NCBI GenBank assembly: GCA_029246505.1
Contig: JAQWNC010000009.1
Coordinates: 1 to 64,000 of the forward strand
Source: Arenicellaceae bacterium
GTDB lineage: Bacteria > Pseudomonadota > Gammaproteobacteria > Arenicellales > Arenicellaceae
Direction of reading: 5' to 3'
DNA length: 64,000 nt
Under the pieces are notes generated by a model, which was not told the origin of the DNA, did no database searches, and worked only from the letters and a program-made list of their open reading frames with translations. Positions 3,607-25,477 of this stretch are shown here, one piece after another; within the stretch, counting starts at the first letter, position 1; each line of letters opens with the position of its first letter. The position numbers and the translations under genes are program-made.

Positions 3607-3741
3607 GCCGTATAGATAAACGTTTCTGATTCGCTACTTACTATAAACGCGCGATTAAAGTTGATCGCTTTAGTGATGCTATCTCGATATGCGATTAAGT
3701 TTCTCACATAACCTTTGTCAGTAAAGGATTCTCAGTTCAGG

Positions 3742-4704: not shown

Positions 4705-4778
4705 TTAGTTCTCCGTGCTATTAGGTCGTGTTTAACTATTCGTTGTGTAATCGTTCAACCCGTTTTAGGCGCCACGAG

Positions 4779-6173: not shown

Positions 6174-6213
6174 TAATTCACCTCTTTACGGTTGTACAGT
6201 TACAATTAAGCGC

Positions 6214-6807: not shown

Positions 6808-6808
6808 A

Positions 6809-9754: not shown

Positions 9755-10010
9755 GTGTTTTATTGGCGTAATCGAGAATCTCATGCGTTAACGTATTTCG
9801 TTGTATGGAGAACCACATTGAACAGCCCATCACATGCCACCATTTCTCTGTTACCGGGCCTAATGGATTGGGCGCCTCGATTAGATAGTCAATCCAGTCA
9901 GCATCAGCATATGCATTAGGATTATCTGCTCGTTTCTCTCTGGCTGGACCGCCATTAATAAACTCGCTTTCGTTTCGTGGACCACAAAAGGGGCAGTGAA
10001 TTACTAGCAT
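9747..10010 (-). CDS. soxD: Sarcosine oxidase subunit delta
   Basis: The 87-aa zinc-binding delta subunit of heterotetrameric sarcosine oxidase. The N-terminal HCPFCGPRNESEF and the later HVMGCSMWF supply the Cys/His zinc ligands, and LTHEILDY near the C-terminus is conserved in the family. It lies 12 bp after soxB, and its stop overlaps the preferred soxA start (ATGACTAG arrangement), the usual tight spacing for this operon. The length is typical and no defect is visible. Confidence 0.93.
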   Translation of the reverse strand: MLVIHCPFCGPRNESEFINGGPAREKRADNPNAYADADWIDYLIEAPNPLGPVTEKWWHVMGCSMWFSIQRNTLTHEILDYANKTHD

Positions 10011-10022
10011 GTCGAGTTGCGC

Positions 10023-11270
10023 TTAATGCGCGGTGGTTGCAGGTTCAAGAACAAAGTCGAGGTGATCAAATCGTTTTAACGAAAATGGTTCGCTCAACGG
10101 GTGTTGTTCGTTATTCGCAATTAAATGCGCGAGGGTTAACCCACCGGCCGGAATTGCTTTGAATCCGCCCCACCAGCCTGCGGATACGAACAACCCCGGG
10201 ATGTCAGTTTTACTAATAATGGGTGTTGCGTCGTGGGCTATATCTAGAGCACCTCCCCATTGCCGCAAAAGTTTGACTCTCTTAAAGGAGGGAAATAGCT
10301 CTAACATTGATCGAACAGACTCTTCAAAAACGTTTTGCTTTATGTCTCGCCGGAATGATTGCCCTGAATCTGGCGCGCCGCCGATAACCAGCTCGCCTTT
10401 GTCGGACTGACTCAGATAAACGCCAAGGTCCGGGCAATTCACGATGACATCGATTAGCGGCTTAAGCGGTTCAGATACAAACGCGGTGAGGTTAAATGTT
10501 CTCAGCGGCAAACGAAGCCCGATCGTTTCTGCCACCGTAGTTGTGTGTCCGGAAACCGAGAGCGCGACTTTATTCGCGGTGATTTTCCCTCGGTCGGTGA
10601 CTACGCCGGTTATAGAGCCATCGGAACCTCTCAGTAACTTCTGCACCCCCGTGTTTTGGTGAATTTCTACACCACGATCATCCGCGCCTCGCGCATAACC
10701 CCAAGCAACCGCGTCGTGTCGGCAAACGGCTGCATCGGTGTGTACCATGCCACCGATAATCGGAAGTCGTGATTCTAGGTCGCCACCAGTGAGCGGTGAG
10801 ATACGGCGACGAAGTTCGCTGACACCGATGGGTTCGTAGGTGGAGCCATGAAGGTGCATGGCAAGCATGCGACGCTTTAACTCACGCAGCTTCGGGTAGG
10901 TCTGAACGACGTCAATCATACCTCGTTTGGAGTACATAAGGTTGTAATTGAGTTCTTGGCTTAGCTTCTCATAGAGTTCGAGTGACTTTACGTAGAATGG
11001 AATACTTTCGTCACGCATATAGTTTGACCGAATCGTGACAGTGTTTCGCGCGATATTTCCGCCACCTAACCAACCCTTTTCGAGCACCGCGACGTTTTGA
11101 ATGCCGTGATTTTTTGCAAGGTAATAAGCTGTTGCTAGGCCGTGCCCGCCGGCACCGATAATGAGGACGTCATAATGTTTTTTGAGAGGTGGAGAACGCC
11201 ATGCTTGACGCCAATTCTGATGGTTGCTTAATGCATTGCGTGCCAGGCTGAATACTGAGTAGTTCTGCAT
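10023..11270 (-). CDS. soxB: Sarcosine oxidase subunit beta
   Basis: The 415-aa catalytic subunit of heterotetrameric sarcosine oxidase, an FAD/FMN-dependent N-methylglycine oxidase. The dinucleotide motif DVLIIGAGGHGLATAYYLAK is at residues ~34-53. VCRHDAVAWGYARGA contains His185, which aligns with the histidine that carries covalent FMN in characterised homologues. SAGWWGGFKAIPAGG near the C-terminus is the conserved substrate-proximal loop. It is the first gene of the sox operon, and a perfect inverted repeat lies 36 bp upstream. Folate and glycine genes common beside sox operons (glyA, folD, purU) are not present, but gcvT and gcvP occur 25 kb away. Confidence 0.93.
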   Translation of the reverse strand: MQNYSVFSLARNALSNHQNWRQAWRSPPLKKHYDVLIIGAGGHGLATAYYLAKNHGIQNVAVLEKGWLGGGNIARNTVTIRSNYMRDESIPFYVKSLELYEKLSQELNYNLMYSKRGMIDVVQTYPKLRELKRRMLAMHLHGSTYEPIGVSELRRRISPLTGGDLESRLPIIGGMVHTDAAVCRHDAVAWGYARGADDRGVEIHQNTGVQKLLRGSDGSITGVVTDRGKITANKVALSVSGHTTTVAETIGLRLPLRTFNLTAFVSEPLKPLIDVIVNCPDLGVYLSQSDKGELVIGGAPDSGQSFRRDIKQNVFEESVRSMLELFPSFKRVKLLRQWGGALDIAHDATPIISKTDIPGLFVSAGWWGGFKAIPAGGLTLAHLIANNEQHPLSEPFSLKRFDHLDFVLEPATTAH

Positions 11271-11305
11271 CGGTTATTATTCTTTGCGCTGGCCTAGAGT
11301 AGGGG

Positions 11306-11333
11306 ATTATAATATGTATGCACATATTATAAT
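11306..11333. promoter_or_regulatory. 12-bp perfect inverted repeat upstream of soxB; candidate operator
   Basis: ATTATAATATGT (11306-11317) and ACATATTATAAT (11322-11333) are exact reverse complements separated by ATGC. The element is AT-rich, is followed by no T-run, and lies in the soxB promoter region, 36 bp before the start codon. That fits a dimeric repressor or activator site (for example GntR or LysR type) better than a terminator. No regulator gene lies next to the operon. Confidence 0.5.
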
Positions 11334-11519
11334 TTAGATTATGCTTATATGGCAATAATAATTTTTGCAAAACAAGCTTTGATGGAGTCAGGGTGGTAAG
11401 AAAATCAAAGGTAATATTAATACTTTTATTTACGCCGAGAACTTAAGCCAATTGTGGTGTCTATCATTTGATTTTTAACTATTGCTCGTTTCCATAATCT
11501 TTTCGAGCTTCTTTTGTGC

Positions 11520-11849
11520 TTACTTTAGATTGGTTAGATCCCGCGCCTCTAACATCTCGCAATCATCGTTGATCATATCTTTGATGCTTGCTGGGTAGAC
11601 CCTACAATCTTTTGGTCGGTCGTAATAAATGTCACAAGAATATTGAACTTGATCTGGGTCCTTACGCAGCCAAGGGCAAAGCTCTATTTGTTTGCCAGTA
11701 TCTGGATCCATCCAAATTTTTTCATTTTGAACGTAACGGGATATATCCGGTCTTAAAAGGTCCCATAACGCGACCTCTTCAGCCGATGCTGATAAGCCGC
11801 CATTACTATATTTAATACAACACTTTCCACATGAGTTGCAGTCTTTCAT
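11520..11849 (-). CDS. YkgJ-family cysteine cluster protein
   Basis: A 109-aa soluble protein with the YkgJ/Fe-S-zinc cluster pattern: CNSCGKCC at residues 4-11, then CPWL at ~58, CDIYYDRPKDCRVYP at ~72-86 and a final Cys at ~97. These cysteines are expected to bind an iron-sulfur cluster or zinc; the exact function of the family is unknown. It is monocistronic, with ~250 bp on the sox side and ~200 bp before the divergent NHL gene. The 11271-11519 gap holds the sox inverted repeat and AT-rich sequence with nothing else recognised. Confidence 0.8.
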   Translation of the reverse strand: MKDCNSCGKCCIKYSNGGLSASAEEVALWDLLRPDISRYVQNEKIWMDPDTGKQIELCPWLRKDPDQVQYSCDIYYDRPKDCRVYPASIKDMINDDCEMLEARDLTNLK

Positions 11850-12058
11850 AGAATAGATATTTTTGCGGGCACAACAGAGGGGTTGGACGTTTTCATGTTT
11901 GCCAGCCTACGCTGCTTTAAGTAGGGTGTGTATATTATTTTTAAATAAATTGAAGTGGCGACCCAAAATTAGTATAGCTGGTGATTCAAGTTTCGCTTAT
12001 GCTCTAACAGTTTTACAAAAAAAGGATCCTGTATTAGCCACTTTAGAGAGATATTTTT

Positions 12059-13105
12059 ATGCGTATTTTTGTCATTTTATTTTCATTATTTGCTAGTTCT
12101 AGTCTTGTCGCGCAAGAAGAGTTGCAATTTACAGTTGATCCAACCTGGCCGGGGCCTTTGCCTGACACCTGGGTTAATGGGCAGTTGGGTGGTGTATGCG
12201 TTGATTCGCACGATCATGTTGTGGTGGTAGATCGACGTAATATTACAGAGGAGGAACACCAGACATCTGTACAAGCGCCATCTATGATCATGTTTGATAA
12301 AGACGGTGAGATGCTTGCTGCCTGGGGTGACCCTGACGTTGTTCCGGAGTCAATTCACGGTTGTAGTTTTGATACTGATGACAATGTATGGGTTGCCGGA
12401 AATAATGATGGCATTGTTCAGAAATATAGCCACGGTGGTGAGTTGCTAATGCAGATTGGCGATCGAGGGCACTTTGATTCTAACGATGATACTGTGCGTG
12501 GTAATCCACTCAATGCGAACCCGGAACGCCTGTTTCGTCCTTCTGCTGTAGTTGTGGATCCAACTAACGGCGATATTTATGTGTCTGATGGGTATGGTAA
12601 CCGGCGGATCGCAGTGTTTGATAAAGATGGAAATTTTTTGCGCCAGTGGGGCCGTCAGGCAACGCAAGAAGAGATTGAGTCAGGTGAGCCGGGTGCTTTT
12701 GCCCAAGTGGTTCATTGTGTAATGCTGGGTAACGATGGCCTAGTTTATGTTTGTGATCGACAGGGCGACCGCGTACAGGTATTTGACAAAATGGGGGAAT
12801 TTGTGCGAAACATATGGGTTAGAACGGGAACTGATACGCTTCCGGATGCTCGCGGTACGGTATGGTCAATTGAGTTTTCAAACGATGCAGGTCAGAAACA
12901 TATGTACATTGTAAATGGCGGCAACGAGCGGATCCATATTCTAGATCGTGAGAGCGGAGAGATTCTATCTACCTTTGGGCGGCCTGGGCATCAGGCAGGT
13001 AACTTTACCCACGGGCATACGATTGCGGTGGATTCCAGCGGGAATATCTATATTGCAGAAACCTCTACAGGCCGTAGAGTTCAGCGATTTAATCCTTCAA
13101 ACTAG
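12059..13105 (+). CDS. Secreted NHL-repeat beta-propeller protein
   Basis: A 348-aa protein with a Sec signal peptide (MRIFVILFSLFASSSLVAQ) followed by about five or six NHL blades. Repeating units of the form 'xxVxVDxxDxVxVxDxxNxRIxVFDxDGxFLRQWG' are visible at residues ~45, ~90, ~165, ~220 and ~290. Homologues are annotated as peptidyl-alpha-hydroxyglycine alpha-amidating lyase-like or as 6-bladed propellers; the enzymatic label is not supported by anything I can see. It is likely periplasmic. A hairpin terminator follows between it and the convergent MBL gene. An overlapping short frame at 11863-12096 looks non-coding. Confidence 0.85.
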   Translation: MRIFVILFSLFASSSLVAQEELQFTVDPTWPGPLPDTWVNGQLGGVCVDSHDHVVVVDRRNITEEEHQTSVQAPSMIMFDKDGEMLAAWGDPDVVPESIHGCSFDTDDNVWVAGNNDGIVQKYSHGGELLMQIGDRGHFDSNDDTVRGNPLNANPERLFRPSAVVVDPTNGDIYVSDGYGNRRIAVFDKDGNFLRQWGRQATQEEIESGEPGAFAQVVHCVMLGNDGLVYVCDRQGDRVQVFDKMGEFVRNIWVRTGTDTLPDARGTVWSIEFSNDAGQKHMYIVNGGNERIHILDRESGEILSTFGRPGHQAGNFTHGHTIAVDSSGNIYIAETSTGRRVQRFNPSN

Positions 13106-13154
13106 CCGGTCGACTTTAGTACTTGGTAAGACTTGGCAAGGGTAGTGGTATAAA

Positions 13155-13185
13155 GCAGCAGCCTATGCGATTACATGGCTGCTGC
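13155..13185. terminator. Hairpin between convergent genes
   Basis: GCAGCAGCC (13155-13163) pairs with GGCTGCTGC (13177-13185), a perfect 9-bp G+C-rich stem with a 13-base loop. Short T-runs follow on each strand, so it could terminate both the NHL gene (+) and the MBL gene (-). Confidence 0.6.
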
Positions 13186-13199
13186 ATTTGACCCCGTTA

Positions 13200-14084
13200 T
13201 TACTGACCTTGCTTCGCCTTGGCCTCAGCAAGAATCTCGTAAGATTCAGCGATTTTTTCGGTTAACCAACGTTGCCATTCTTCTGGTGCGACCCAAGGGT
13301 GTGGATCGCCGGCTTGTCGATTTTTAAGTCGTTCAGCCCGAACAAAAAGATCGTCTGCACCAGCTGGAACGATGTCCGAGTGATTGATCAGCGTCACGTC
13401 AATATTTGGAATGGTCTGAATTCGTTCAAGATCGTCAATGAAACGCTGGATTTCTTCAGGAACATCAGTTCGGATAGCCGATCCACCATGAAAGTAGGTC
13501 AAATATTCTTGACCGTCGTCAAAAACTGAAAACCTCATGGATGTGGTGCCAGCGGTGTGTCCAGGGGTATGCTCGAAGCTCAAAGTAGTATCACCCAAGG
13601 TGAGGCTGGAGCCATCGTCAATAATCATGTCTCGGGCGATAGATTGATCGCCCAAATCACCTTCCATCCGCTCCCAGTCAAGTAATGACATTCCGATAGT
13701 TGCGTCGGTCAGCTGAGGTTTTAACTCCCGCAAGCCACCATAATGATCGCGATGCGCTTGCATAACGATGACGTATCTAATCCCCGCAGGGTCCAGACCA
13801 ACAGTCCGGATATTTTCAAGAAGATTTTCTGTAAAGCCGTCAAAGCCGTCAAGCGTGTCGATCAGTATCAACCCTTCACTAGTTTTGATCACATAGCTTG
13901 CTACAGCCTGAATGCCTACAAAATAAACATTATCAAAAATCTGAAATGGTTCAGTTGCTTGAGCACTAATATCGTTTCGTTCAGTACGCGTGAAGCCATA
14001 TTCATCAACTTGTGCAAACGCGTTACTCAGAGGCAAGACGAGAACGAGTGCAATTAGTAAAGTACTAATTTTTTGTCGATACAT
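13200..14084 (-). CDS. Secreted MBL-fold hydrolase with Gln in the first metal-ligand position
   Basis: A metallo-beta-lactamase-fold protein of about 294 aa starting at ATG 14084, chosen because AAAGGAG sits at ideal spacing and a signal peptide (MYRQKISTLLIALVLVLPLS) begins there. An upstream TTG frame at 14141 has neither. The metal motif reads MQAHRDHYGG, giving Gln109-x-His111-x-Asp113-His114, not the usual HxHxDH. The third and fourth histidines are in HTPGHTAGTTS and LINHSDIV. A Gln at this position is known in subclass B3 GOB-type beta-lactamases. Physiological substrate unknown. It is not closely similar to the other MBL protein at 3.7-4.7 kb. Confidence 0.85.
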   Translation of the reverse strand: MYRQKISTLLIALVLVLPLSNAFAQVDEYGFTRTERNDISAQATEPFQIFDNVYFVGIQAVASYVIKTSEGLILIDTLDGFDGFTENLLENIRTVGLDPAGIRYVIVMQAHRDHYGGLRELKPQLTDATIGMSLLDWERMEGDLGDQSIARDMIIDDGSSLTLGDTTLSFEHTPGHTAGTTSMRFSVFDDGQEYLTYFHGGSAIRTDVPEEIQRFIDDLERIQTIPNIDVTLINHSDIVPAGADDLFVRAERLKNRQAGDPHPWVAPEEWQRWLTEKIAESYEILAEAKAKQGQ

Positions 14085-14130: not shown

Positions 14131-14790
14131 CTAGTCCACACGGTTGTTTACTCTGCGGACTAAATCACCATTTTCATCCCAATCATAACGAATGCGCACT
14201 CCCTCTTTATCTAAAATCCCTAGTCCCTGTTGGAAATGACCTTGCGGTGGATAGCCCTCAGGCACTCTAGCTTCAATAATATATAGACGCGCCTCATGCA
14301 AATATATACCCACATAACTGCTGGAATTATCGGCATTGGTAATATTTAGCTGGTGCCCTGCAATCCTGTCTATGTGATGCCAAGCGTCGTAATTTACTTT
14401 GCCGCCGCGATTGCGATACTTGGTGGCAGCATAATCAACTGATGCAATCACATCAATTCGCCAATACTCATAACCTACCGGCGCATCAGCTTCTGTGGTG
14501 TTGGTGCGTGCTTTATGGATATTATAGGCATCGGTATAATCGATAACGGTTAATGAATATACACTCTCGCCCTTCTCTACTGTATAAACGCGGGCCGGAA
14601 AGACAGCGTCGTATTCAGAAGCCCAGGTAATTTCTTCCACCGTTGGCTCGATGCCAGGGGGGATGTTGATAGAGAAGAAGTCATCCATATTGTTATACTG
14701 GACCCAACTCTGTCCGAAGCCTGGACTTGCAAGGAGTAGCGAATAGACTAGAAGCGAAAGTACAATTGGTAATTTATTTTTTGTACGCAT
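14131..14790 (-). CDS. Secreted protein of unknown function, paralogue A
   Basis: A 219-aa protein beginning at ATG 14790 (GGAGAG at good spacing; the 23 codons upstream are extra frame). A signal peptide ends near ASPGFGQ. I do not recognise the family. The mature part contains SINIPPGIEP, VYSLTVIDYTDAYNIH, a WRIDVIASVDYAATKYRNRGG stretch and HHIDRIAGHQLNI. A close paralogue lies at 17720-18397, identical at most positions through this region. Both copies directly follow a DUF6152 reading frame, so the two products probably work together in the periplasm. The C-terminus is acidic and hydrophilic. Confidence 0.75.
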   Translation of the reverse strand: MRTKNKLPIVLSLLVYSLLLASPGFGQSWVQYNNMDDFFSINIPPGIEPTVEEITWASEYDAVFPARVYTVEKGESVYSLTVIDYTDAYNIHKARTNTTEADAPVGYEYWRIDVIASVDYAATKYRNRGGKVNYDAWHHIDRIAGHQLNITNADNSSSYVGIYLHEARLYIIEARVPEGYPPQGHFQQGLGILDKEGVRIRYDWDENGDLVRRVNNRVD

Positions 14791-14804
14791 ATTATCTCTC
14801 CGAA

Positions 14805-15185
14805 TTAGTCCCACATCATTTCTTCGCCATTTGGCGGAGTAACAAACCCTAGCAGACAACCGTTGGTGTTATCTCTTAGTTGGTGGCATCGCACAGAGAT
14901 TTTGTCACCTACTTTGATGCTATCTTCACTCCAGCCACGCCTTGTGAGTGCGCTGACCCCGCCGCCCTCCATTGCCCAAATAGTATTTTTGCCATCTTCA
15001 CCAGGCACCGAAACATATAACCAGGCATGTGGATTCATCCAATGCACTTCCGTAACTGTGCCTGATAGGTGAGTGTATTCAGTCATGCGGTAGTTACCAT
15101 GGGAATGATGTCCCCAGGCAGGTATTAGCCATGCGGTAGCCGCAAGAAGAGTCGCTAGAACAAAATATTTTTTACTACTATTCAT
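14805..15185 (-). CDS. DUF6152 family secreted protein, short form
   Basis: A 126-aa single-domain DUF6152 protein of unknown function. The signal peptide runs to about AWG (residues 23-25), so the mature chain is predicted to begin His26-His27-Ser28. The conserved HWMNPHAWL follows (His53), then GEDGKNTIWAMEGG, TRRGWSEDSIKVGDKISV and CHQLRDNTNGCLLGF. An N-terminal His plus a second conserved His suggests copper binding (see findings). It lies 14 bp upstream of the unknown secreted protein and downstream of the ricin-like gene. A broken copy of this gene is at 18412-18670. Confidence 0.85.
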   Translation of the reverse strand: MNSSKKYFVLATLLAATAWLIPAWGHHSHGNYRMTEYTHLSGTVTEVHWMNPHAWLYVSVPGEDGKNTIWAMEGGGVSALTRRGWSEDSIKVGDKISVRCHQLRDNTNGCLLGFVTPPNGEEMMWD

Positions 15186-16028: not shown

Positions 16029-17072
16029 ATGAACAAACGTCAACATTGGGTAGTAGTCTTTTTATGGTTGTCGTGCTCTGTCGCGCAGGCGCTTGACGGA
16101 ACATTACTGGTGACCAACAGAAGCGGTGGTAGTATTTCGTTTTTTGATTTGGCTACTCTCACAGAGATTGCTCGCGTGCCTATAGGACCGACTATTCCCC
16201 ATGAAGTGGCAGTATCACCTGACGGAAGACAGGCAATTACTGCGGAGTACGGCGTGGGTCAGAATCACGGCCGGCATGTAATTTTGATTGATATAGCGAG
16301 TGCTAGAGTTACTGGCCGCATTGACCTTGGTCCAAATTCCCGTCCGCACACTGTATTGTTTATGCCTGACGGTCGTCATGCTGTAGCCACTATGCAGGAT
16401 TCTGATCAAATTGCTTTTATCGATCTTGAAACAATGAAGATGATCCGCACTTACCCGACCGGTGGGCGGGAGGGGCACATGATGCGCCTGAGCCCGGATG
16501 GATCTCGTGCGTATGTGACCAGTCGCGGAGCCGAAGGCACGCTGTCGGTTGTATTTCTTAATGAAGATCGCGATCCGGTTGTTCTGCAGACTGGCTTGGG
16601 TGCAGAAGGTCTGGAAGTAACCCCCGACGGTAAGGAGATATGGGTTGCCGATCGACAGGAGGAGTCGGTCTCTATCATTGATAGCGAAAGCTTACAGGTC
16701 GTCGAGCGGTTTAAGGCCAGGCCTTATGCGGGACGAATTGCGATGGCTTCGGGCGGGCGAGCCGTTATGCCTAACGGTGGCGGCGGTGGTGAACCGGTTC
16801 CGCAATATTTGCGCCTTTTGGATAGAGCCACGCGCGAGATGGTTGCCGAGGTACCGCTTCGGGATGGCGAACCGCAGTACGGTAACTTCGGAATATTAGT
16901 TCATGACGGGTGGGCGTTTGTTAGCGATCCGTACGCGGGTACGATTCAGATGTTCAATCTGGGTACGCTTTTAAATGATGAGCCAGAGCGCGAGTTTATC
17001 TCAAGCGATCACGATACACCCGATGGCATGGCGTGGTCGCCAATTAGAGTAGGTGTTATGGGTGATGAGTAA
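16029..17072 (+). CDS. Secreted YVTN/YncE-type seven-bladed beta-propeller protein
   Basis: A 347-aa protein with a signal peptide (residues ~1-21, ending AQALDG) and several YVTN-type blades: LLVTNRSGGSISFFDLATLT, HEVAVSPDGRQAI, PHTVLFMPDGRHAVATMQD, MMRLSPDGSRAYVTSRGAEG and LEVTPDGKEIWVADRQEESV. The family (YncE/cytochrome D1-like) is periplasmic and often accompanies quinoprotein or cytochrome systems, but no haem or quinone site is visible. The start is supported by GAGGGCGAGA upstream. It is divergent from the ricin-DUF6152 run. The 15877-16028 gap shows only promoter-like AT-rich sequence. Confidence 0.82.
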   Translation: MNKRQHWVVVFLWLSCSVAQALDGTLLVTNRSGGSISFFDLATLTEIARVPIGPTIPHEVAVSPDGRQAITAEYGVGQNHGRHVILIDIASARVTGRIDLGPNSRPHTVLFMPDGRHAVATMQDSDQIAFIDLETMKMIRTYPTGGREGHMMRLSPDGSRAYVTSRGAEGTLSVVFLNEDRDPVVLQTGLGAEGLEVTPDGKEIWVADRQEESVSIIDSESLQVVERFKARPYAGRIAMASGGRAVMPNGGGGGEPVPQYLRLLDRATREMVAEVPLRDGEPQYGNFGILVHDGWAFVSDPYAGTIQMFNLGTLLNDEPEREFISSDHDTPDGMAWSPIRVGVMGDE

Positions 17073-17158
17073 GCTAATTTCGATCAAAAAAGTCGGTTTT
17101 AGGCACATTTTAGTTTATCTTGTAATCCTATCTATACGGGGTTGAAATTTAAGCTCTG

Positions 17159-17182
17159 GTGAGCTGGTGAGCTGGTGAGCTG
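17159..17182. repeat. Three tandem copies of an 8-bp unit
   Basis: GTGAGCTG is repeated exactly three times (17159-17166, 17167-17174, 17175-17182), directly before the 114-aa open frame. Because each unit shifts the frame by one and contains TGA, three copies close all three forward frames. This is consistent with slippage expansion. Confidence 0.85.
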
Positions 17183-17191
17183 GCGGCACAG

Positions 17192-17536
17192 ATGTCCGCG
17201 CCAAAAGTAGATGATGCGGAGCATTTTGTGACAATTTCGTTCTGGAGGACTGATGATTGTAGTGGCGAGCCAGTGGCCTCCAATAGTTTTCCGGTAGATT
17301 ACGGCAGCGAGCGTTGTGATAGCTGGCCTGGCCGTTCCGGTTCCAATTCAGCGACAAACTTTATGTGCGCTGCTGATAGTTTTACTTATACACAATGGAC
17401 AACAATAACCTGCAGCGGCAGCAGGAATCCGCCTGGAATGGTTAAAACAAATTATTCAGATCAATGTACGCAGGATGTGCCGCCAGCACTTTATACAAAA
17501 GTTACAGACTTTAGTGGTTGCGAGAATTCGCAATAG
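17192..17536 (+). CDS. Cys-rich hypothetical protein lacking its signal peptide (possibly 5'-disrupted)
   Basis: A 114-aa frame with six cysteines spaced as in a disulfide-stabilised secreted domain (CSGEP, ERCDSW, FMCAAD, ITCSGS, QCTQD, GCENS). The composition, polar with Trp, Tyr and Cys, looks like a real exported protein, yet no signal peptide precedes the ATG. Upstream, three copies of an 8-bp repeat close every forward frame. The 5' end may therefore have been lost or pushed out of frame. I do not recognise the family. The downstream sequence is a decayed fragment on the opposite strand. Confidence 0.4.
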   Translation: MSAPKVDDAEHFVTISFWRTDDCSGEPVASNSFPVDYGSERCDSWPGRSGSNSATNFMCAADSFTYTQWTTITCSGSRNPPGMVKTNYSDQCTQDVPPALYTKVTDFSGCENSQ

Positions 17537-17576
17537 GCTAAGCTAAATACCAAGTTAGATAACAAGCTACATTAAC

Positions 17577-17755
17577 GCGTGCATTCGTAGCGCTTGATTT
17601 GTGTGCAGGGTGCTCACATCCGATACCCGTTTAGCGTAAACGCTTCCGAATATTACATTGGGTCAGTTACGCTAGCCGTACAGTCTAGGCATGTATCGTT
17701 CTCGCTAGGTGCAAAGTGTTCAACATTCACCGATTTGGCAAGGGTACCCCCCAAA
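17577..17755 (-). pseudogene. 3'-end remnant of the 363-aa DUF6152 gene
   Basis: Read on the minus strand this gives EHF, ENDTCLDCTASVTDPM-stop-YSEAFTLNGYRM-stop and APCTQIKRYECT. These align step for step with the end of the intact gene at 18774-19865 (EYF, KDDTRLDWTARVTDPMYYSEPVTL, APGTQIKRYECTL). Two in-frame stops are present and everything upstream is missing. The final codons of the neighbouring 17720-18397 gene run into it in another frame. Confidence 0.8.
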
Positions 17756-18397
17756 ACTTTCACGTTGGATCAACTTACCATTTTCATCCCAGTTATAACG
17801 AATTCGTATCCGGTCTTCATCCAAAAACCCCAACGACTGTTGAAAATGTCCCTGTGGAGGATACCCCTCAGGGACGCGGGCTTCAATGATGTAAAGTTTG
17901 GCTTTGTGCAAATACATGCCCACATAGCTACTAGATTGATCGGCATTGGTGATATTTAATTGATGCCCCGCAACGCGGTCAATATGATGCCACGCATCAT
18001 AGTTTACGGTACCGCCTCTGTTGCGGTATTTGGTGGCAGCAAAAGTAACCGATGCGATCACATCGATTCGCCAGTAATTATAAGGTGCATCGGCTTCCGT
18101 AGTATTGGTGCGTGCCTGATGAATGTTGTAGGAATCGGTGTAATCGATAACAGTTACCGAGTAAGTGCTGTCGCCTTTTTTTATCGTGTATATACGCCCC
18201 GGAAAGACAGCATCATATTCTGATGGGTAGGTGATTTCTTCTATCGTAGGTTCGGTCTCTGGTGGAATATTGATCGTGAATCGATCTGTCATGTTCTGGT
18301 AGGTGACCCATGATTGTCCATAGCTTGGGTTTGAAAGCAACAGAGTCAAAAGTAAGGTTGTCGAAACTATTACTGATAATATGTTTACTATACGCAT
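17720..18397 (-). CDS. Secreted protein of unknown function, paralogue B
   Basis: Close paralogue of the protein at 14131-14790, starting at ATG 18397 (GAGGAG upstream; eight codons of extra frame precede it). The signal peptide ends near SYGQ, then SWVTYQNMTDRFTINIPPE, VTVIDYTDSYNIHQAR, WRIDVIASV and AWHHIDRVAGHQLNI parallel copy A throughout. The last ~15 residues (ESFGGYPCQIGEC) are unlike copy A because the frame now reads into the remnant of another gene, so the original C-terminus has been replaced. About 225 aa. Function unknown. Confidence 0.7.
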   Translation of the reverse strand: MRIVNILSVIVSTTLLLTLLLSNPSYGQSWVTYQNMTDRFTINIPPETEPTIEEITYPSEYDAVFPGRIYTIKKGDSTYSVTVIDYTDSYNIHQARTNTTEADAPYNYWRIDVIASVTFAATKYRNRGGTVNYDAWHHIDRVAGHQLNITNADQSSSYVGMYLHKAKLYIIEARVPEGYPPQGHFQQSLGFLDEDRIRIRYNWDENGKLIQRESFGGYPCQIGEC

Positions 18398-18411
18398 GTT
18401 ATTTCTCCTCA

Positions 18412-18670
18412 TTAGTCCCACATCATTTCTTCGCCATCGGGCGGTGCAACAAAGCCTAGCAGGCAGCCATTAGTGTTGTTTCTTAGCTAATAACATCGCG
18501 CAGAAATTCCATCGTCTTGTGAAATGCTATCTTTACTCCAGCCGTATCGGGTTAGCACAGAAACGCCGCCTCCTCTATTTCCCAGAGAGTAATCTTACCA
18601 TCTTCACCGATAGCACTAGCCGCACGCTGGCTGTAATGATGGGCCCGAAGGTTAAGAGTTTTTTATTCAT
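18412..18670 (-). pseudogene. Decayed second copy of the short DUF6152 gene
   Basis: Starts with ATG AAT AAA AAA like the intact gene at 14805-15185. It has then lost the region encoding the HHS and NPH motifs, resumes with IGEDGKITLWEIEE, and shifts frame to give GVSVLTRYGWSKDSI and ISARCY-stop-LRNNTNGCLLGF. It ends in PPDGEEMMWD exactly as the intact copy does. A CAG codon has become TAG. It keeps the same position directly before paralogue B, so it marks an old tandem duplication. Confidence 0.88.
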
Positions 18671-18712
18671 AGTCGTATGCTACTCAACTAATGGATCCTA
18701 ATACTACGAAAA

Positions 18713-18756
18713 TCGGCTTCGGTCCGCTGTCACCTTTGTTGGCGTGCAGCACGGCT
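18713..18756 (-). pseudogene. 3'-end remnant of a second ricin-like gene
   Basis: The minus-strand translation SRAARQQR-stop-QRTEAD matches the last residues of the intact ricin-like protein (SRDARQQWRLRTEAD). It sits immediately before the broken DUF6152 copy, as in the intact three-gene order, which shows that the duplicated unit included the ricin-like gene. Confidence 0.7.
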
Positions 18757-18773
18757 AATACCAGACTAAAGCA

Positions 18774-19865
18774 TTATAGCGTGCATTCATAGCGCTTGAT
18801 TTGTGTGCCTGGTGCCCATGTCCAATGCCCGCTTAGCGTAACCGGTTCAGAATAATACATTGGGTCAGTAACGCGAGCAGTCCAGTCCAGCCGCGTGTCG
18901 TCCTTGCTAAGTGCGAAGTATTCGACCACGCTAGCCGCAGGGCTTTGTGGTGAACCAACATCATCAAAGAACGGGTAATCGATTCCAGTAGTGGTGACGA
19001 TTAAAGTATTATCCTCCCAGCGGCCTACTGAGTATCCCATTTGTGGCACAACAAGTTCGGGTGGAGTAGGGCTTGGAGTCATATATATGGTACGGATACC
19101 ATCCCACTCTTCCAGGCGCATGATAATTTTTTCATTTTCATTAGTGAATTCAAAAGGGTAGGGGTTATCCATGGCAGCCGGTATGCCAGGTGGGATACAT
19201 TTCAGGGCTGGATCGTCTGTTAGAGGGTCCCACGAATCTTTGGCGGCCTGACCCTCCGGTGTTAATGGCCAGACATATAATCCAGAGCCCGTGAAAGGTC
19301 TGGAAACCGGCACCCAAACCCGAAATATTCCCTGTGCAGCTTCCCGGGATTCCTTAATCACATCATCTGCTATTGCTAACTCATTTGCTCGTGAGTCGTT
19401 AAAGTTGGGTAGCAAACGTGCAGCAAGGTTCGGGTTAAGAATGACCTCTTCGCCATCGGCAAAATTTATACTTACTGCGAACATGGTATCTAAGCCGTGC
19501 AGCGATGCTGGGCCGGAAACACGAAGTGTTTCTCCAACTCGAAGTGTGTCTTTGCCAACACCATTTCGCTGCAAGGTGTTTAACGAACCCGCCTCCATAT
19601 CCCATATAGTTTCGCTACCAAGTTCATTAGTCACCTTCAATTTGAACCGTATATGCGGGTTTCGCCATACTACCAATACCACCTCGCCTTCCACTTCTAC
19701 TAGTTTGCTCATGTCGTAGAACGCGCCAAAGGAATGATGCGCATTTCCGACTGCTGGTAGGCACAAAGAACAAACCAATAAGTATTTGAGAGCCGATAGC
19801 CACTGTTTCGGTAGGGTTATTTTAGGGGTCAGCATTAAACTTTTCGCAGTATATTGGGTGGTCAT
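18774..19865 (-). CDS. DUF6152 family secreted protein, long form
   Basis: A 363-aa protein. An N-terminal leader ends VGNA (residues 39-42), so the mature protein is predicted to start His43-His44-Ser45. WRNPHIRFKL gives the second conserved His (His71), then LGSETIWDMEAGSLNTLQRNGVG. A C-terminal domain of ~200 residues includes CIPPGIPAAMDNPYPF, MRLEEWDGIRTIYM, YSVGRWEDNTLIV and a GHWTWAPGTQ ending. The same two-domain form occurs at 24446-25477. It follows the tannase gene by 43 bp and is probably the last cistron of that operon. The start at 19865 is uncertain; M11 is the alternative. Function unknown, probably periplasmic. Confidence 0.83.
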   Translation of the reverse strand: MTTQYTAKSLMLTPKITLPKQWLSALKYLLVCSLCLPAVGNAHHSFGAFYDMSKLVEVEGEVVLVVWRNPHIRFKLKVTNELGSETIWDMEAGSLNTLQRNGVGKDTLRVGETLRVSGPASLHGLDTMFAVSINFADGEEVILNPNLAARLLPNFNDSRANELAIADDVIKESREAAQGIFRVWVPVSRPFTGSGLYVWPLTPEGQAAKDSWDPLTDDPALKCIPPGIPAAMDNPYPFEFTNENEKIIMRLEEWDGIRTIYMTPSPTPPELVVPQMGYSVGRWEDNTLIVTTTGIDYPFFDDVGSPQSPAASVVEYFALSKDDTRLDWTARVTDPMYYSEPVTLSGHWTWAPGTQIKRYECTL

Positions 19866-19908
19866 AGTTTGATCCGCATATCTAAGGTATTAATTGCGCG
19901 GTTAGTAT

Positions 19909-21492
19909 CTATTCCGGTGGCGCTACGCAGTGAAAGTTTTCGGCATTATTTGAATCCAAGTCTGCAGCCTTAAGTCTAGCCACTTGAGGGTAGGGGCACC
20001 ATGGACGCGATATTCCTCGTTGCTCGTGAGTAGCAAGGATTGAATCTGGTGCTGTACCTTCAACAACCCACTTGTCGATTGCCGCCAGAACAGACTGGGT
20101 ATAATTATTAGGCCCGTCACCACCCTGGCAATGGCCCATGCCCGGAGCCATAAACAATCGTACATGATCACGAAAATCATCTATCCCTCGTTTCCGGGAC
20201 ACCGTGCTTTCCATCGCGTCGTATATTTCAACAGTAGGATAGGGCGTTACGTTGATATCAGCCCAGCCGTGATACACAATTGCTTTACCTCCGCTTTGCA
20301 CAAACGGGGTTACGTCCGAATTGTCCGCTCGGCTAACAGTTGAGAAGTAGCTAGAATCCGCAGCGGCAACCTGTTCAGGATTATTAATACTGAAATTGTT
20401 TAGTAGATCCATTTCAGGGTTTTGAAACCAGGCACGGCCAAGGTAGTCACACCGCCCAGAACCTGCTTCATTGGTGCAATTCGACTTTAGAAAAGTTTGC
20501 CAACCACCTTGTCGACCGCCAGATTCACCACCTGGGACTGCTCCTGGGTAAATCCTCTCACCTTTTTGTGTGACCGGTCCCTGATAAATCGTGCGTACAA
20601 AATCTACCTGAATGTCAGTTAAGCAGGAAGCAGCTGAACTTGTTGATTCGCAGCTAAGTTCGGCAGGATCGAAGTTGCATTGACGAGGGTCATCGATGAT
20701 TCGGTCTGCAAGACCGTCTACTGCATCACAGTTGCTCAAAACAGCCTCCTTGATCGATGCAAGTTGATCGTCGTTTAGTGTCTCATCTTGGTCACTAAGT
20801 AATTGTATTTGTTGCCCTTTCCATAGCTGAGACATATTCAATCGAGTCAGGGAGTAGACAGGTGCCCCTGCAACAATACCATCGAAATCATTGGGATAAC
20901 TCTGCATTGCTCTTAGCCCTTGGCGTCCACCTGTCGAGCAACCGAAGTAGTATGAGTATTCTGGTGCTTGTTCGTAAAACTCGTCGACAAACTGTTTGCC
21001 GACAACGGTGGTTAAATGGATTGCTCGATGAGAGAAGTCATCCATGGCTACATTGTTCGGAAGCATGGTGCCGGAGTCAGACTCCTTCATTACCCAGTTC
21101 TCTGCTTCGCCCCTGATGCTAGTATGCCCCGTATCAGTTTGACCTGTTGCGTAGCCTAACTGTAGTACGGCATTAACGCGTTCTTCACCCTGGAAGGAGC
21201 CAGCGGTGCCACCGTTTCCAACAACCAGAAACTTGCCGTTCCAAGCCGCTTCGCCGGGCAAGCGGATTCGGAATTTAATCTGACTTTCCCCATCTTCAGC
21301 ATTAGCGATGTTGCCTTCTACCTGGCAATATCCGCCCATTTTATCGATCACATCAGCACTACTGAGCGTGACCCCGTTTGGCGAGTCAGCAGCCAGTTGC
21401 TCAAATATAGATACGTCACAATCGGCTGCATAGGAACTCAAAGGCATGAGCAGCAGTAGGGAGGCGTTTAAAAGCTTTTTATTTTTGGTCAT
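19909..21492 (-). CDS. Tannase / feruloyl esterase family hydrolase
   Basis: A 527-aa secreted alpha/beta hydrolase of the tannase/feruloyl esterase family (signal peptide to SYAAD, residues ~1-24). The nucleophile elbow is FGCSTGGRQGL (Ser near residue 180). The Asp is in YHGWADINVTPYP and the His in APGMGHCQGGDGP, the expected triad order. Paired Cys residues (CDVS, CQVE, CNFDPAELSC) fit the disulfides seen in this family. It would cleave phenolic esters or a related ester in the periplasm. It sits between cstA and the long DUF6152 gene, with gaps of about 50 bp, suggesting one operon. Confidence 0.88.
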   Translation of the reverse strand: MTKNKKLLNASLLLLMPLSSYAADCDVSIFEQLAADSPNGVTLSSADVIDKMGGYCQVEGNIANAEDGESQIKFRIRLPGEAAWNGKFLVVGNGGTAGSFQGEERVNAVLQLGYATGQTDTGHTSIRGEAENWVMKESDSGTMLPNNVAMDDFSHRAIHLTTVVGKQFVDEFYEQAPEYSYYFGCSTGGRQGLRAMQSYPNDFDGIVAGAPVYSLTRLNMSQLWKGQQIQLLSDQDETLNDDQLASIKEAVLSNCDAVDGLADRIIDDPRQCNFDPAELSCESTSSAASCLTDIQVDFVRTIYQGPVTQKGERIYPGAVPGGESGGRQGGWQTFLKSNCTNEAGSGRCDYLGRAWFQNPEMDLLNNFSINNPEQVAAADSSYFSTVSRADNSDVTPFVQSGGKAIVYHGWADINVTPYPTVEIYDAMESTVSRKRGIDDFRDHVRLFMAPGMGHCQGGDGPNNYTQSVLAAIDKWVVEGTAPDSILATHEQRGISRPWCPYPQVARLKAADLDSNNAENFHCVAPPE

Positions 21493-21546
21493 AGTTAATT
21501 TGTAGCTATTCCGTATAAGTTTGTATTTAGGTTAATGTTGTATTGC

Positions 21547-23235
21547 TTAGGCCTTTGATTTTTCCGCGCGTTGTTTGGCGCGCTCTTTTGAGATAACAGA
21601 AAGGGATTCCAGCACAACTAGTAGTGAGGTGATTAATACCACGGCGTTTATCACCATTAGCAAATAGTTACCTTCGCGCAGGAATTGCATAAAGATGATC
21701 GCAGATGCGATTACTGACATACACAATACAAAAACCATCGGGACTAAGGTAACCATAGCAGGGCGTCTTTTTTTAATTAACATGACCGATAGTACTAACA
21801 GGGTCATGCCGGCTAATATTTGATTAGTAGAGCCAAACAGCGGCCAGATAGTCATTCCACCGTTACCTTCAAGGCCTCCAGCACCAAAGGCCAATACCAA
21901 ACAGGCGCCAACGGCTATACCCGTGGCAACAATGCCATTGGTGATCCACTTAATATTATAGATTTCACCCCATTCCTGAATTATGTAGCGCTGCAATCGC
22001 ACCCCGGAATCCATGGTAGTCCCGGCAAATAGCGCTACCATCGTCGCGAGTAGTGTTGAGGCAAGCCCTGCTGATATTCCCCAACCACTTTCTATTAGAT
22101 TAGCGCCACCCTTAATAAATGCACCAACAGAACCAGCTCCAAAATGTGAATAGGTTTCGTGCCACTCCTCTGGTGTCGCAGCAAGTGCTACGCCAGTGAC
22201 GGCGATAAGGGTAATTAAAGCTAAAGCACCTTCGCCCAGAGCGGCAAAATAGCCAACAAATCTTGTATCGGGTTCTTTATCGAGCTGTTTTGATGTAGTA
22301 CCGGAGGCAACAATTCCGTGGAAGCCGGAAACTGCACCACAAGCGATGGTAACAAACAGCAACGGTACTAAAGATGGCGTGCCTTCAGCGAGTTGATTAT
22401 TAAATGCCGGTGCAGTTATTTCCGGGCCAGAGATAAGTACCGCGCCGTATAACAGCAACAAGCCTACGGCAAGTTGCATGCCATTAATAAAGTCGCGTGG
22501 TTGAAGAAGCATCCACACCGGCAGCATTGAAGCGATTGCCGCGTAAACAAACAGAATAACGATCCAGGTTGCAGGAATGCCCAGACCCGGTAAACCCGAT
22601 GGCAGGCTTAATGGCATTTCGCTTCCCGCATAAATAGAAGCATAAAGCACCGCAACACCGATAGCCGTTAGCACGCCAAGCTTCATCATATTACGATGTA
22701 ATAGCTGGCCGATGACCAGAGCAACTACGATTGCCGACCAGGCCGGTAACACCGAACTCGGCGTGCTCACAAATGCGTTGGCTATAACTACGCCGAAAAC
22801 AGAATTCACCATTAACAGTACTAAAAATACCACCACCATGTATAGCGCACGGGTACGAGGTCCAATAACATTTTCCGATAGTGCTCCAATCGATTTGCCC
22901 TTGTGTCGTACACTGGCCCACAGCGCGCCCATATCGTGTACGCCGGCGAAAAATATGGATCCAAAAATAACCCAAAGAACAGCGGGCACCCACCCCCAGT
23001 AAACAGCGATCGCGGGGCCAACTATCGGCGCAGCACCTGCTACCGAGGTGAAATGATGTCCCCATAACACATATTTATTGGTAGGAATGTAATCAACGCC
23101 GTCTTCGAGTTCATGGGCAGGCGTTTCAAAATCGGGGTCTAATCGAAATATATGCACAGCCACATACTTTGAGTAAACGAACCAGCCGAAACACAGGCCA
23201 ATAATACCAAGAATTAGAATAGTGATTGCGCTCAT
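21547..23235 (-). CDS. cstA: CstA-family carbon starvation / organic acid transporter
   Basis: A 562-aa polytopic membrane protein with about 15-16 hydrophobic helices. It has CstA landmarks: YVLWGHHFTSVAGAAPIVGP (residues ~55-75), GSIFFAGVHDMGALWAS, VASGTTSKQLDKEPD and FAGTTMDSGVRLQRYI. Characterised CstA/BtsT members import pyruvate or peptides. In this operon, behind an esterase and a cytochrome, it may take up a product of ester cleavage, but that is inference. Good AAGGAG ribosome site before the ATG. It is somewhat shorter than the ~700-aa E. coli protein, as in many marine species. No ybdD-like small partner gene follows. Confidence 0.9.
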   Translation of the reverse strand: MSAITILILGIIGLCFGWFVYSKYVAVHIFRLDPDFETPAHELEDGVDYIPTNKYVLWGHHFTSVAGAAPIVGPAIAVYWGWVPAVLWVIFGSIFFAGVHDMGALWASVRHKGKSIGALSENVIGPRTRALYMVVVFLVLLMVNSVFGVVIANAFVSTPSSVLPAWSAIVVALVIGQLLHRNMMKLGVLTAIGVAVLYASIYAGSEMPLSLPSGLPGLGIPATWIVILFVYAAIASMLPVWMLLQPRDFINGMQLAVGLLLLYGAVLISGPEITAPAFNNQLAEGTPSLVPLLFVTIACGAVSGFHGIVASGTTSKQLDKEPDTRFVGYFAALGEGALALITLIAVTGVALAATPEEWHETYSHFGAGSVGAFIKGGANLIESGWGISAGLASTLLATMVALFAGTTMDSGVRLQRYIIQEWGEIYNIKWITNGIVATGIAVGACLVLAFGAGGLEGNGGMTIWPLFGSTNQILAGMTLLVLSVMLIKKRRPAMVTLVPMVFVLCMSVIASAIIFMQFLREGNYLLMVINAVVLITSLLVVLESLSVISKERAKQRAEKSKA

Positions 23236-23295
23236 GCTGCGGCTCCTTAATTTAAGCGGTTAGGCTTGGTTTAATTTAAACTTTATAGACCTTTC

Positions 23296-24360
23296 TTATG
23301 GCTGAAGTGACGCAATATACGCTGAAATCGCAATAATATCATCTTGAGTAAGGCGGTTTACGGCCAATTCCATCGTAGCCGCCATAGCACTATTTCGATT
23401 ACCTTTCTGCATATCATACATTTGACGGCCAATATAACTTGGTTGACGGCCAGCAATAGGCGGTGCTATTGCAGTTCCTCGTAATTCTGGACCATGACAG
23501 GTTAAACACTCGACGCTAACGTCTCCACCAGTGGTAACCAGCTCCTCACCACGTGCCAGACTGCCGATAGGAGCGTAAGCGATCATTCCAGATCGGGGAT
23601 TGCGAAGATAATTGGTGTCATAGGCACTTTTAGGCAGTTCGATTAGTCGTTGCCCAAGTGGTTCTGTCTCATCACCTTCGTTTTGAGTAAGCAGTCCATT
23701 ACGTGAGGCAGAGAATTTTGGAACGGTGTCAGACTCTACGACTTCTACCCAGTGTTTGAATGGTATCGAAGAGTAGTATTCAGCCGCTTCTCTTGCTTGT
23801 TCCGGGGTTAGCGCTCTTGCGATTGCTGCCATTTCAAAGCCGTTAGCTTTGTGCGGGTCTGACGTCACTCGTTTACCACTGGCTAAATCGTCAAGCTGTT
23901 GCAAGAAATATTCGACCGACAACCCAGCAACCGGCGCATTTTGCATCAAACCTTGACCATTAGGTAAATGACAGATGGCGCAGGCTCTTAAGCCAATTTC
24001 TTCGTTCCCGTGAGCCACAATTTCAGGCATTGGCGGGTGGTCCCCAGGGAACCAGTCAGCCGGAGTAAAAGGTGAGGTGATAACCGCTAGAGTAAACTCC
24101 AGATCACTGCCTTCAACCTGTAATAGCTTATTGGTTGGATCCTTGGGCATTCCTCCAGGTCGGTCACAGTCTCTTGGTCTGCTACCCATACAACTTTGTG
24201 ACCAGTCTTCAGGTGGTTCTGGGGGCGTGATATAGCCGTATGCCCAAAGTGGGAAATCAGCTTGATGAGAAGGAGCGACTGACTCCTGTGCCTGAGTAGC
24301 TATGCTACCAAGCAAAAGGCATATCACAATAGGGATCAACCTGTTACTACACTTGGTCAT
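23296..24360 (-). CDS. Periplasmic dihaem cytochrome c
   Basis: A 354-aa protein with a signal peptide (to ATQAQ, residues ~1-25). Two c-type haem sites are present: CAICH at 127-131 and CLTCH at 285-289, each in a class I cytochrome c domain with later Met candidates. An N-terminal stretch of ~100 residues rich in Pro and Cys (DWSQSCMGSRPRDCDRPGG) precedes the first haem domain and is not part of a standard cytochrome. It is the second gene of the apparent operon, between the 343-aa DUF6152 gene and cstA. It probably accepts electrons from a periplasmic oxidation; the donor is not visible here. Confidence 0.88.
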   Translation of the reverse strand: MTKCSNRLIPIVICLLLGSIATQAQESVAPSHQADFPLWAYGYITPPEPPEDWSQSCMGSRPRDCDRPGGMPKDPTNKLLQVEGSDLEFTLAVITSPFTPADWFPGDHPPMPEIVAHGNEEIGLRACAICHLPNGQGLMQNAPVAGLSVEYFLQQLDDLASGKRVTSDPHKANGFEMAAIARALTPEQAREAAEYYSSIPFKHWVEVVESDTVPKFSASRNGLLTQNEGDETEPLGQRLIELPKSAYDTNYLRNPRSGMIAYAPIGSLARGEELVTTGGDVSVECLTCHGPELRGTAIAPPIAGRQPSYIGRQMYDMQKGNRNSAMAATMELAVNRLTQDDIIAISAYIASLQP

Positions 24361-24445
24361 TATAAATCTCCGTGCTCGCTGTTTGCGGCCCAGCCAAAAA
24401 GTTAGGCCGCATTCAGCATGGGCATTAGTACTTATTCACGTTCAG

Positions 24446-25477
24446 TTAGATACGATCCATCTGGTTCTCGCAATCCCATTCTCCAATGGCGATTTCGGGG
24501 CGCCAGATAAAATAACGGCTCAGTTCGAACGGTTCAGTGAATGTTTCAGAGTCAGTAAACGCAATGCTGTAGTTGAGTCGTTGCTCATCTTCACTCAATG
24601 TGAGTCGTTCAGTGGTTTGAATATTATCGGTCTGCGGGGTACCGCGGTCATCAAATTCAGGCGCATTTATATTCGTGGTTTCAATAACCAGAATATCTCC
24701 TTCCCAACTACCTCGTGAATATCCAAGAAAGGAGAAAGCTTCAGGAGGGCTATCGTCATTCATGTGAATAACGCGTTCGGTATCATCCTCTTCAAATCGA
24801 ATCACAATGTCATCGTCGCGACGAGTTATTTCTAACGGGATCGGGGTGATCATCAGAATTGGCATTCCTTTTTCCCAACAACTCAGTAGTTGGTCAGAAG
24901 ATGGATTCCAGTCGGCTTTGATCTGTGCCGCTTTTGCTGTCAGAGGGTAGTCACCTTTAAACATAGGGAAGGAGTCGCGGTCAGTTAATACGGTAGACCA
25001 AACACGAAATATTCCATCGGCGTTAGCACGTGCCGCTTCGGAAATTTGGTCGTCGAACACCGGATCAAGCATCTCTCCAGTAGTCGAGACGGTAAAGTAG
25101 GCTTCTGATCGGGTGGCAAGCAGTACCTCTGTCCCATTAGGCAATAAGACATTTCTGGCCCACATTTCTGGTTCACCATGGCGTGAGGGGTGGCCATAGA
25201 TTTTTATTCGATCGCCAGGTTGCATAAAATTCTGATCCAGACCACGCGATTTTAAAACGCTCAACGCAGACGCTTCGATCTTCCACTCTTCGGTAGTGCC
25301 GTCGGCAGCCGTCACATCGAGCGTAAAACGAATATGCGGGTTACGCCAAGTAATATTCGTTAATACCCCTTCGACTTCTGATCTTTCTTCGGGGTTGAAA
25401 AAACCAAGAGTGCTATGGTGCGCGCGGGCAAGTCCACTTACTAATAGTAATAGAACGAACGGTAGATATCGGTTCAT
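24446..25477 (-). CDS. DUF6152 family secreted protein, long form
   Basis: A 343-aa paralogue of the 18774-19865 protein. The signal peptide MNRYLPFVLLLLVSGLARA gives an ideal cleavage site, leaving His20-His21-Ser22 at the mature N-terminus. WRNPHIRFTLDV holds the second His (His48), followed by EEWKIEASALSVLKSRGL, PGDRIKIYGHPSRHGEPEM and a C-terminal domain with YSRGSWEGDILVIETTNI. A strong GAGGAG site precedes the ATG. It is first in the run of five minus-strand genes down to 18774, so its promoter should lie in the ~280 bases upstream. Confidence 0.85.
   Translation of the reverse strand: MNRYLPFVLLLLVSGLARAHHSTLGFFNPEERSEVEGVLTNITWRNPHIRFTLDVTAADGTTEEWKIEASALSVLKSRGLDQNFMQPGDRIKIYGHPSRHGEPEMWARNVLLPNGTEVLLATRSEAYFTVSTTGEMLDPVFDDQISEAARANADGIFRVWSTVLTDRDSFPMFKGDYPLTAKAAQIKADWNPSSDQLLSCWEKGMPILMITPIPLEITRRDDDIVIRFEEDDTERVIHMNDDSPPEAFSFLGYSRGSWEGDILVIETTNINAPEFDDRGTPQTDNIQTTERLTLSEDEQRLNYSIAFTDSETFTEPFELSRYFIWRPEIAIGEWDCENQMDRI

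Follow-up and report, generated by a model that had tools for sequence, protein, structure and literature searches.

A highly expanded and unstudied DUF6152 family with an invariant histidine signature, predicted to be secreted and putatively metal-binding, in an Arenicellaceae bacterium

Could an unstudied protein family make up about 4% of the genes of a bacterium? Such a case is found in the small genome of a marine Arenicellaceae bacterium (Gammaproteobacteria; GenBank assembly GCA_029246505.1), from which we analysed one stretch of 64,000 nucleotides (contig JAQWNC010000009.1, positions 1 to 64,000, called the window below). In a first-pass annotation of this DNA, a five-gene operon had been described, with a tannase-type esterase, a CstA carrier and a cytochrome c between two proteins carrying the domain DUF6152 (Pfam PF19649). 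The operon itself turned out to be ordinary, and its description partly wrong; the surprise is DUF6152, a family of about 100 members in this genome with a common histidine signature. The occurrence of some 100 secreted members that are predicted to start with two histidines after export points to an unstudied, hugely diversified class of metal-binding proteins. The 100 matches correspond to about 4% of an estimated 2,300-2,500 genes, and about 5% of the genes carry either DUF6152 or the C-terminal domain joined to it in the long copies. Similar expansions exist in several uncultured bacterial lineages, for many of which the record titles point to a marine origin, and no mention of 'DUF6152' or 'PF19649' was found in the literature searched. 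If the N-terminal histidines do form a metal site, the number of members per genome would be exceptional for a metalloprotein family, and the family would offer a handle on the use of organic matter by these organisms.

The long copies of DUF6152 contain both an N-terminal domain (N domain) and a C-terminal domain (C domain), and the other copies contain only one of them, often as adjacent N and C genes. Among 61 paralogues of the genome, the N domain has a mean column identity of 26%, and its sole invariant columns are H20, H21, P47 and H48, while C200, G252, E290 and C336 are invariant in the C domain. All three histidines are still invariant in a 70-row set with sequences from metagenome-assembled genomes (MAGs). 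In 219 of the 232 N-domain genes, the two histidines follow a hydrophobic stretch and signal-peptidase motif, with Ala, Gly or Ser just before them in 216; the 13 genes lacking the motif are mostly apparent truncations or have mis-called starts. By comparison, the motif is absent from all 671 other genes whose product has a hydrophobic N-terminus. Cleavage of the signal peptide is therefore predicted at a position that would expose a conserved N-terminal histidine (His1), and the invariant histidine of the Asn-Pro-His (NPH) motif is a further candidate metal-coordinating residue. The earlier proposal of a redox or metal role for DUF6152 gains support from this signature, as far as sequence can tell. 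Alternatively, the invariant histidines might serve structure, export or protein contacts with no metal involved, and the family would be a diversifying surface or periplasmic binding protein. The C domain is indeed common alone, where no His-His pair accompanies it, metal binding is a deduction for DUF6152, and the first ten residues are modelled less confidently; but an N domain of 26% mean identity in which nothing except three histidines and one proline is invariant shows the pattern that a metal site would leave, and the first of these histidines lies exactly at the predicted cleavage site, so that we regard this alternative as quite improbable.

The structure of the mature protein encoded at 24446-25477 was predicted by AlphaFold2 with a pLDDT (predicted local distance difference test) of 91 and a pTM (predicted template modelling score) of 0.87. 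With Foldseek, the predicted N domain matches OB-folds (SSB, PriB, LysRS), and the predicted C domain matches fatty-acid- and retinoid-binding barrels of the FABP/CRABP type, a result repeated when the C domain is folded alone. The top matches of the C domain are nearly all meander beta-barrels of the FABP type, at moderate scores. Because the similarity is moderate (best E 9e-4), 'FABP-like' is used here as a description of the fold and implies no membership. When the PDB was searched by sequence with the DUF6152 profile, all matches stood at chance level, though they were to OB-fold proteins. The DUF6152 proteins of the window do not match the Pfam families DUF4198 and DUF6702, whose N-terminal histidines are discussed below, and the N domain matches OB-folds and not the beta-sandwich of those families.

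How widespread is the expansion? The genome studied here (2.64 Mb, with scores of 97.5% for completeness and 0.22% for contamination) has 100 matches to DUF6152, which are distributed over 20 of its 30 contigs, and its sister species has 40, while the 39 other genomes of the same family and order have none. The class-wide sample gave four other positives among 368, with at most 5 copies, and the phylum-wide sample of 397 genomes gave 44 among the 396 others, with at most 8. In a scan of species genomes with a 5-row alignment, 79 related loci were found, all in MAG records; 29 of these MAGs carry from 1 to at least 117 copies each, many of them 50 or more, and first-look candidates reach 192 copies in 4.5 Mb. 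The value of 117 seems to be a ceiling of the scoring, so that counts at this level are minimum values. The C domain, which has no Pfam match, is present in 91 copies in the genome and absent from two family members. It stands alone in many genes and has expanded in parallel with the N domain. Could these numbers be an artefact of assembly or binning? The related loci with named records do all come from MAGs; however, the copies are spread over most contigs of a nearly complete and clean genome, three of them lie in the window beside housekeeping genes, and the same pattern recurs in 29 other MAGs, which by record titles stem from several independent projects. An artefact is scarcely credible, and contamination as the source of the copies is rejected on the same grounds.

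The 61 long copies of the genome fall into 48 tree groups interleaved with MAG sequences, and their median best identity within the genome is 42%. This indicates an old diversification, in which gene transfer was possibly involved, and recent duplication is rejected as the main source of the copies. In a tree of RarA, the expanded genomes occupy at least three separate places, and the genus studied here stands beside a family member lacking DUF6152; some of the genomes with very many copies are labelled Rhodospirillaceae and some Gammaproteobacteria. The tree thus hints at repeated expansion or transfer and disfavours a single ancestral expansion. Since it is based on one gene and has several weak nodes, the number of expansion events is provisional.

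We now turn to the locus, whose features are listed in Table 1. The five open reading frames (ORFs) lie on the minus strand exactly at the coordinates given before, with gaps of 85, 60, 54 and 43 bp, and their family names all hold by Pfam, in agreement with PDB searches. All three DUF6152 proteins of the window score above the gathering cut-off of PF19649 (27 bits). The count of two DUF6152 proteins is correct for the five genes and an understatement beyond them, as a third, short copy (14805-15185) and the remnant of a fourth (about 18415-18617) lie nearby, and the genome as a whole has 100 matches. The cytochrome contains CAICH and CLTCH after its signal peptide and is therefore dihaem. Its N-terminal part, said to be Cys/Pro-rich and unusual, is Pro-rich, whereas only two Cys occur in the mature part; full-length homologues with 43-80% identity share the region, and hence it is not unusual. 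In the tannase, GCSTGG, YHGWAD and PGMGHC align with GCSEGG, YHGMSD and PGMNHC of MHETase. CstA is not evidently an aromatic carrier, because its nearest named family is the pyruvate symporter, and it falls far under the cut-off of that NCBIfam equivalog (227.8 against 1188 bits).

Table 1. Features of the DUF6152 locus in the window, with positions counted from the first nucleotide of the window
Feature	Position	Strand	Support
Long DUF6152 (343 aa), gene 1 of the trio	24446..25477	-	Pfam PF19649 66.4 bits; sister orthologue 68% identical; AlphaFold pLDDT 91
Domains of the 24446-25477 protein: signal peptide, His20-His21, OB-fold with NPH (His48), C-terminal FABP-like barrel			predicted
Codons of invariant His20-His21 (predicted mature N-terminus, His1-His2)	25415..25420	-	invariant in 61 own paralogues and the 70-row set
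Asn-Pro-His codons, residues 46-48 (His48 = mature His29)	25334..25342	-	no exception for Pro and His, few or none for Asn
Dihaem cytochrome c (354 aa), gene 2 of the trio	23296..24360	-	Pfam PF00034 42 bits; 80% identical in sister
CXXCH motifs of the cytochrome	23968-23982 and 23494-23508	-	read from DNA
CstA-family carrier (562 aa), gene 3 and end of the trio	21547..23235	-	Pfam PF02554 450 bits; 85% identical in sister
Tannase/feruloyl esterase family enzyme, 527 aa, catalytic motifs intact	19909..21492	-	Pfam PF07519 346 bits; alignment with MHETase 6qz2 E 1.1e-57
Second long DUF6152, 363 aa	18774..19865	-	Pfam PF19649 64.5 bits; other clade than 24446-25477, 35% identity (tree, pairwise)
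Short DUF6152, 126 aa, N domain only	14805..15185	-	Pfam PF19649 103.9 bits; syntenic in sister
Short-DUF6152 remnant with internal stop and frame change, in duplicated unit	18415..18617	-	tblastn with 14805-15185 protein
4.5-kb stretch absent from the sister's collinear locus	17062..21568	-	blastn of window against L052

The sister species is represented by the MAG SI074_bin90 (our G001, loci L052 and L076), from Saanich Inlet by its isolate name. Its collinear locus contains an oxidoreductase gene like that at 2267-3235 of the window, a metallo-beta-lactamase (MBL) hydrolase, a gene of the 14131-14859 type, a short DUF6152 and a YncE-like propeller, then directly CstA, the dihaem cytochrome and the long DUF6152, with neither the tannase nor the second DUF6152. 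Based on blastn, the window is collinear with this locus as far as 17061, and collinearity resumes at 21569. The 4.5-kb stretch between holds a copy of the 14131-type gene, the dead short DUF6152, the long DUF6152 of 18774-19865 and the tannase, and the difference is either a gain here or a loss in the sister. The first part of this stretch resembles a unit nearby, as 14167-15002 and 17777-18608, both including short DUF6152 sequence, dead in the second, share 72% identity over 841 bp. The locus is thus a species-specific juxtaposition of two units, namely a DUF6152-cytochrome-CstA trio conserved within the genus and a tannase with another DUF6152. Two further observations concern this part of the window. 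The 14131-type family is without a Pfam match, and in 7 of the 9 cases sampled its gene immediately adjoins one with a DUF6152 domain (p 7e-6); the pair of the two genes is duplicated in the window (14131-15185 and 17720-18617), with the second short DUF6152 dead. In addition, nothing in the sister's collinear locus corresponds to a stretch of about 9.6 kb (approximately 3620-13210); its ORFs look by eye antiporter-like, sarcosine-oxidase-like and amine-oxidoreductase-like, among others.

Could the five genes nevertheless act as one operon, in which a secreted esterase cleaves a phenolic ester, the cytochrome oxidises the product and CstA imports it? The genes are co-directional with short gaps, and the tannase belongs to the feruloyl esterase/MHETase family with its catalytic motifs intact. 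None of the four gaps contains a terminator-like site, and promoter- and terminator-like sites are about as numerous as in shuffled sequences; therefore, the five genes may be co-transcribed. The first three genes are preceded by good ribosome-binding sequences, which the tannase and the last DUF6152 lack. No conserved five-gene set was found in relatives: the sister holds three of the five genes, and the other examined genomes parts of the set only. Tannase followed by DUF6152 was found in two other MAGs (L155/L140, tannase 65% identical; L177, 60%), where the DUF6152 proteins are only 34-35% identical to that of the window, belong to another clade and are non-orthologous. The closest relative found of the 18774-19865 protein (L139_7, 61-62%) is located beside a RidA-type gene. 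Related tannases also occur beside sulfatases; relatives with 45-64% identity adjoin sulfatase-like genes directly in L156, L176 and L158. Because the five-gene set was found only in this genome and the partners elsewhere are non-orthologous, the degradation-and-uptake unit proposed before does not stand up to the neighbourhood comparison, from which the trio alone emerges as kept within the genus, and no evidence points to a phenolic ester in particular as the substrate. We consider the operon explanation very unlikely.

Is there any link between DUF6152 and the neighbouring families in other genomes? The cytochrome adjoins an N-domain gene at 5 of 30 loci (p about 7e-4, rising to 0.013 when the background rate is doubled), CstA at 3 of 10 (p about 0.001, rising likewise to 0.01) and the tannase at 3 of 28 (p 0.03 to 0.15). 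Each of the first two counts includes one locus of the sister, several tests were made, and the neighbourhood genes were called by a simple longest-ORF script, so that some starts are wrong. Several other associations were seen. CstA homologues about 70% identical are located directly downstream of an apparent short-chain fatty acid transporter (by eye) in L217, L219 and L220. The dihaem cytochrome is followed by a phytoene-desaturase-like FAD oxidoreductase gene (by eye) in three MAGs (L205, L207 and L209), two of which have a long DUF6152 just upstream. Finally, the secreted families recurrent near DUF6152, in the loci of the genome itself (L001-L045) and of the MAGs, include sulfatases, NHL propellers, RidA-like proteins, arylsulfotransferases, Amidohydro_3 and ricin-type lectins.

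Taken as a whole, the best explanation, toward which we lean slightly, is that DUF6152 proteins are secreted, super-expanded metalloproteins with a His1-His2 site and a ligand barrel, present here in a two-unit locus and in some cases coupled to cytochromes. A metal site is proposed because a histidine that export uncovers at the N-terminus is by nature a chelator of metals, and the families found in that way bind metals. Upon export, cleavage of the signal peptide would leave His1-His2 at the N-terminus of the OB-fold, and His1, through its amino group and side chain, together with His2 and/or His29 of the NPH motif, would chelate a transition metal, for which copper is the likeliest candidate. 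A disulphide probably holds the C-terminal FABP-like barrel, which may bind a lipophilic or aromatic organic ligand, and in this ligand the roughly 100 paralogues would differ. Within the trio, electrons would pass between the cytochrome and the metal site of DUF6152, and CstA would import a small organic product. A bolder extension, which is distinctly unlikely, would make DUF6152 a new class of secreted OB-fold copper oxidoreductases with an N-terminal-histidine site and a lipid-type substrate barrel, some of them wired to dihaem cytochromes. The diverged copies, from tens to over a hundred in each of several unrelated uncultured marine lineages, would then serve as a combinatorial toolkit with which diverse dissolved organic compounds are oxidised.

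Several points weigh against the metalloprotein explanation. Residues 1-10 of the AlphaFold2 model have a pLDDT of only 71, the structural matches are moderate (for the C domain, TM-scores of 0.5-0.6 by target and 0.4 by query), and the known N-terminal-histidine families are beta-sandwiches, not OB-folds. The DUF6152 proteins that accompany the cytochrome, CstA and the tannase belong to different clades, and the tests of adjacency are small in number, in part dependent on one another and weaker with the doubled background rate; consequently, with the sister also counted among the loci, adjacency is only suggestive of a coupling between DUF6152 and the cytochrome or CstA. It is also conceivable that DUF6152 proteins are non-catalytic metal carriers or sequesterases for uptake or buffering, like DUF6702, to which both barrel and neighbours are incidental. 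They share the N-terminal-histidine anatomy of DUF6702, a tight Ni, Co and Cu binder for which no oxidase or peroxidase activity was seen (PMC12537917). However, about 100 strongly diverged copies with diversified ligand-type barrels are hard to explain by buffering alone, and the frequent neighbours are hydrolases, propellers and cytochromes instead of metal transporters. Such a carrier role appears unlikely, though by no means far-fetched.

The proteins of the locus can be compared with several known systems. The tannase of the window shares family and catalytic motifs with MHETase and feruloyl esterase B (PDB 6qz2 and 3wmt), and in other genomes it is not tied to CstA or the cytochrome. DUF4198, which binds Ni, and DUF6702, which binds Ni, Co and Cu, were found through the N-terminal histidine left by signal-peptide cleavage; these 'signal strapping' families are beta-sandwiches that keep this histidine in 79% and 65% of members, respectively, and the model metal ligands of DUF6702 are His1, His28 and His32, with the apo His1 modelled at low confidence (PMC12537917). 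DUF6152 resembles them in the predicted mature N-terminal histidine, the further conserved histidine (His1, His2, His29) and the low model confidence of the apo N-terminus, and differs in its predicted OB-fold, the His-His pair in essentially all intact copies, the frequent fusion to a barrel and the copy number of about 100. Like copper histidine brace proteins of the LPMO (lytic polysaccharide monooxygenase) type (PMC10952591), DUF6152 proteins are predicted to be secreted, with an N-terminal and a further histidine as likely metal ligands; no relation of sequence or fold to LPMOs was found, the predicted OB-fold being different from the LPMO fold. The C domain consistently matches lipid-binding barrels of the FABP/CRABP type at the level of the fold, and is distinguished from them by moderate similarity, 9-15% identity, predicted secretion and two invariant Cys. 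The last parallel is SAR202, a group of uncultured marine bacteria whose large and old enzyme-family expansions have been proposed to widen their range of organic matter (PMC5395668, PMC6946804). Flavin monooxygenases and other known enzymes were expanded in SAR202, whereas DUF6152 is an uncharacterised family whose catabolic role is only proposed; what the two share is a large and old expansion of paralogues in uncultured marine bacteria.

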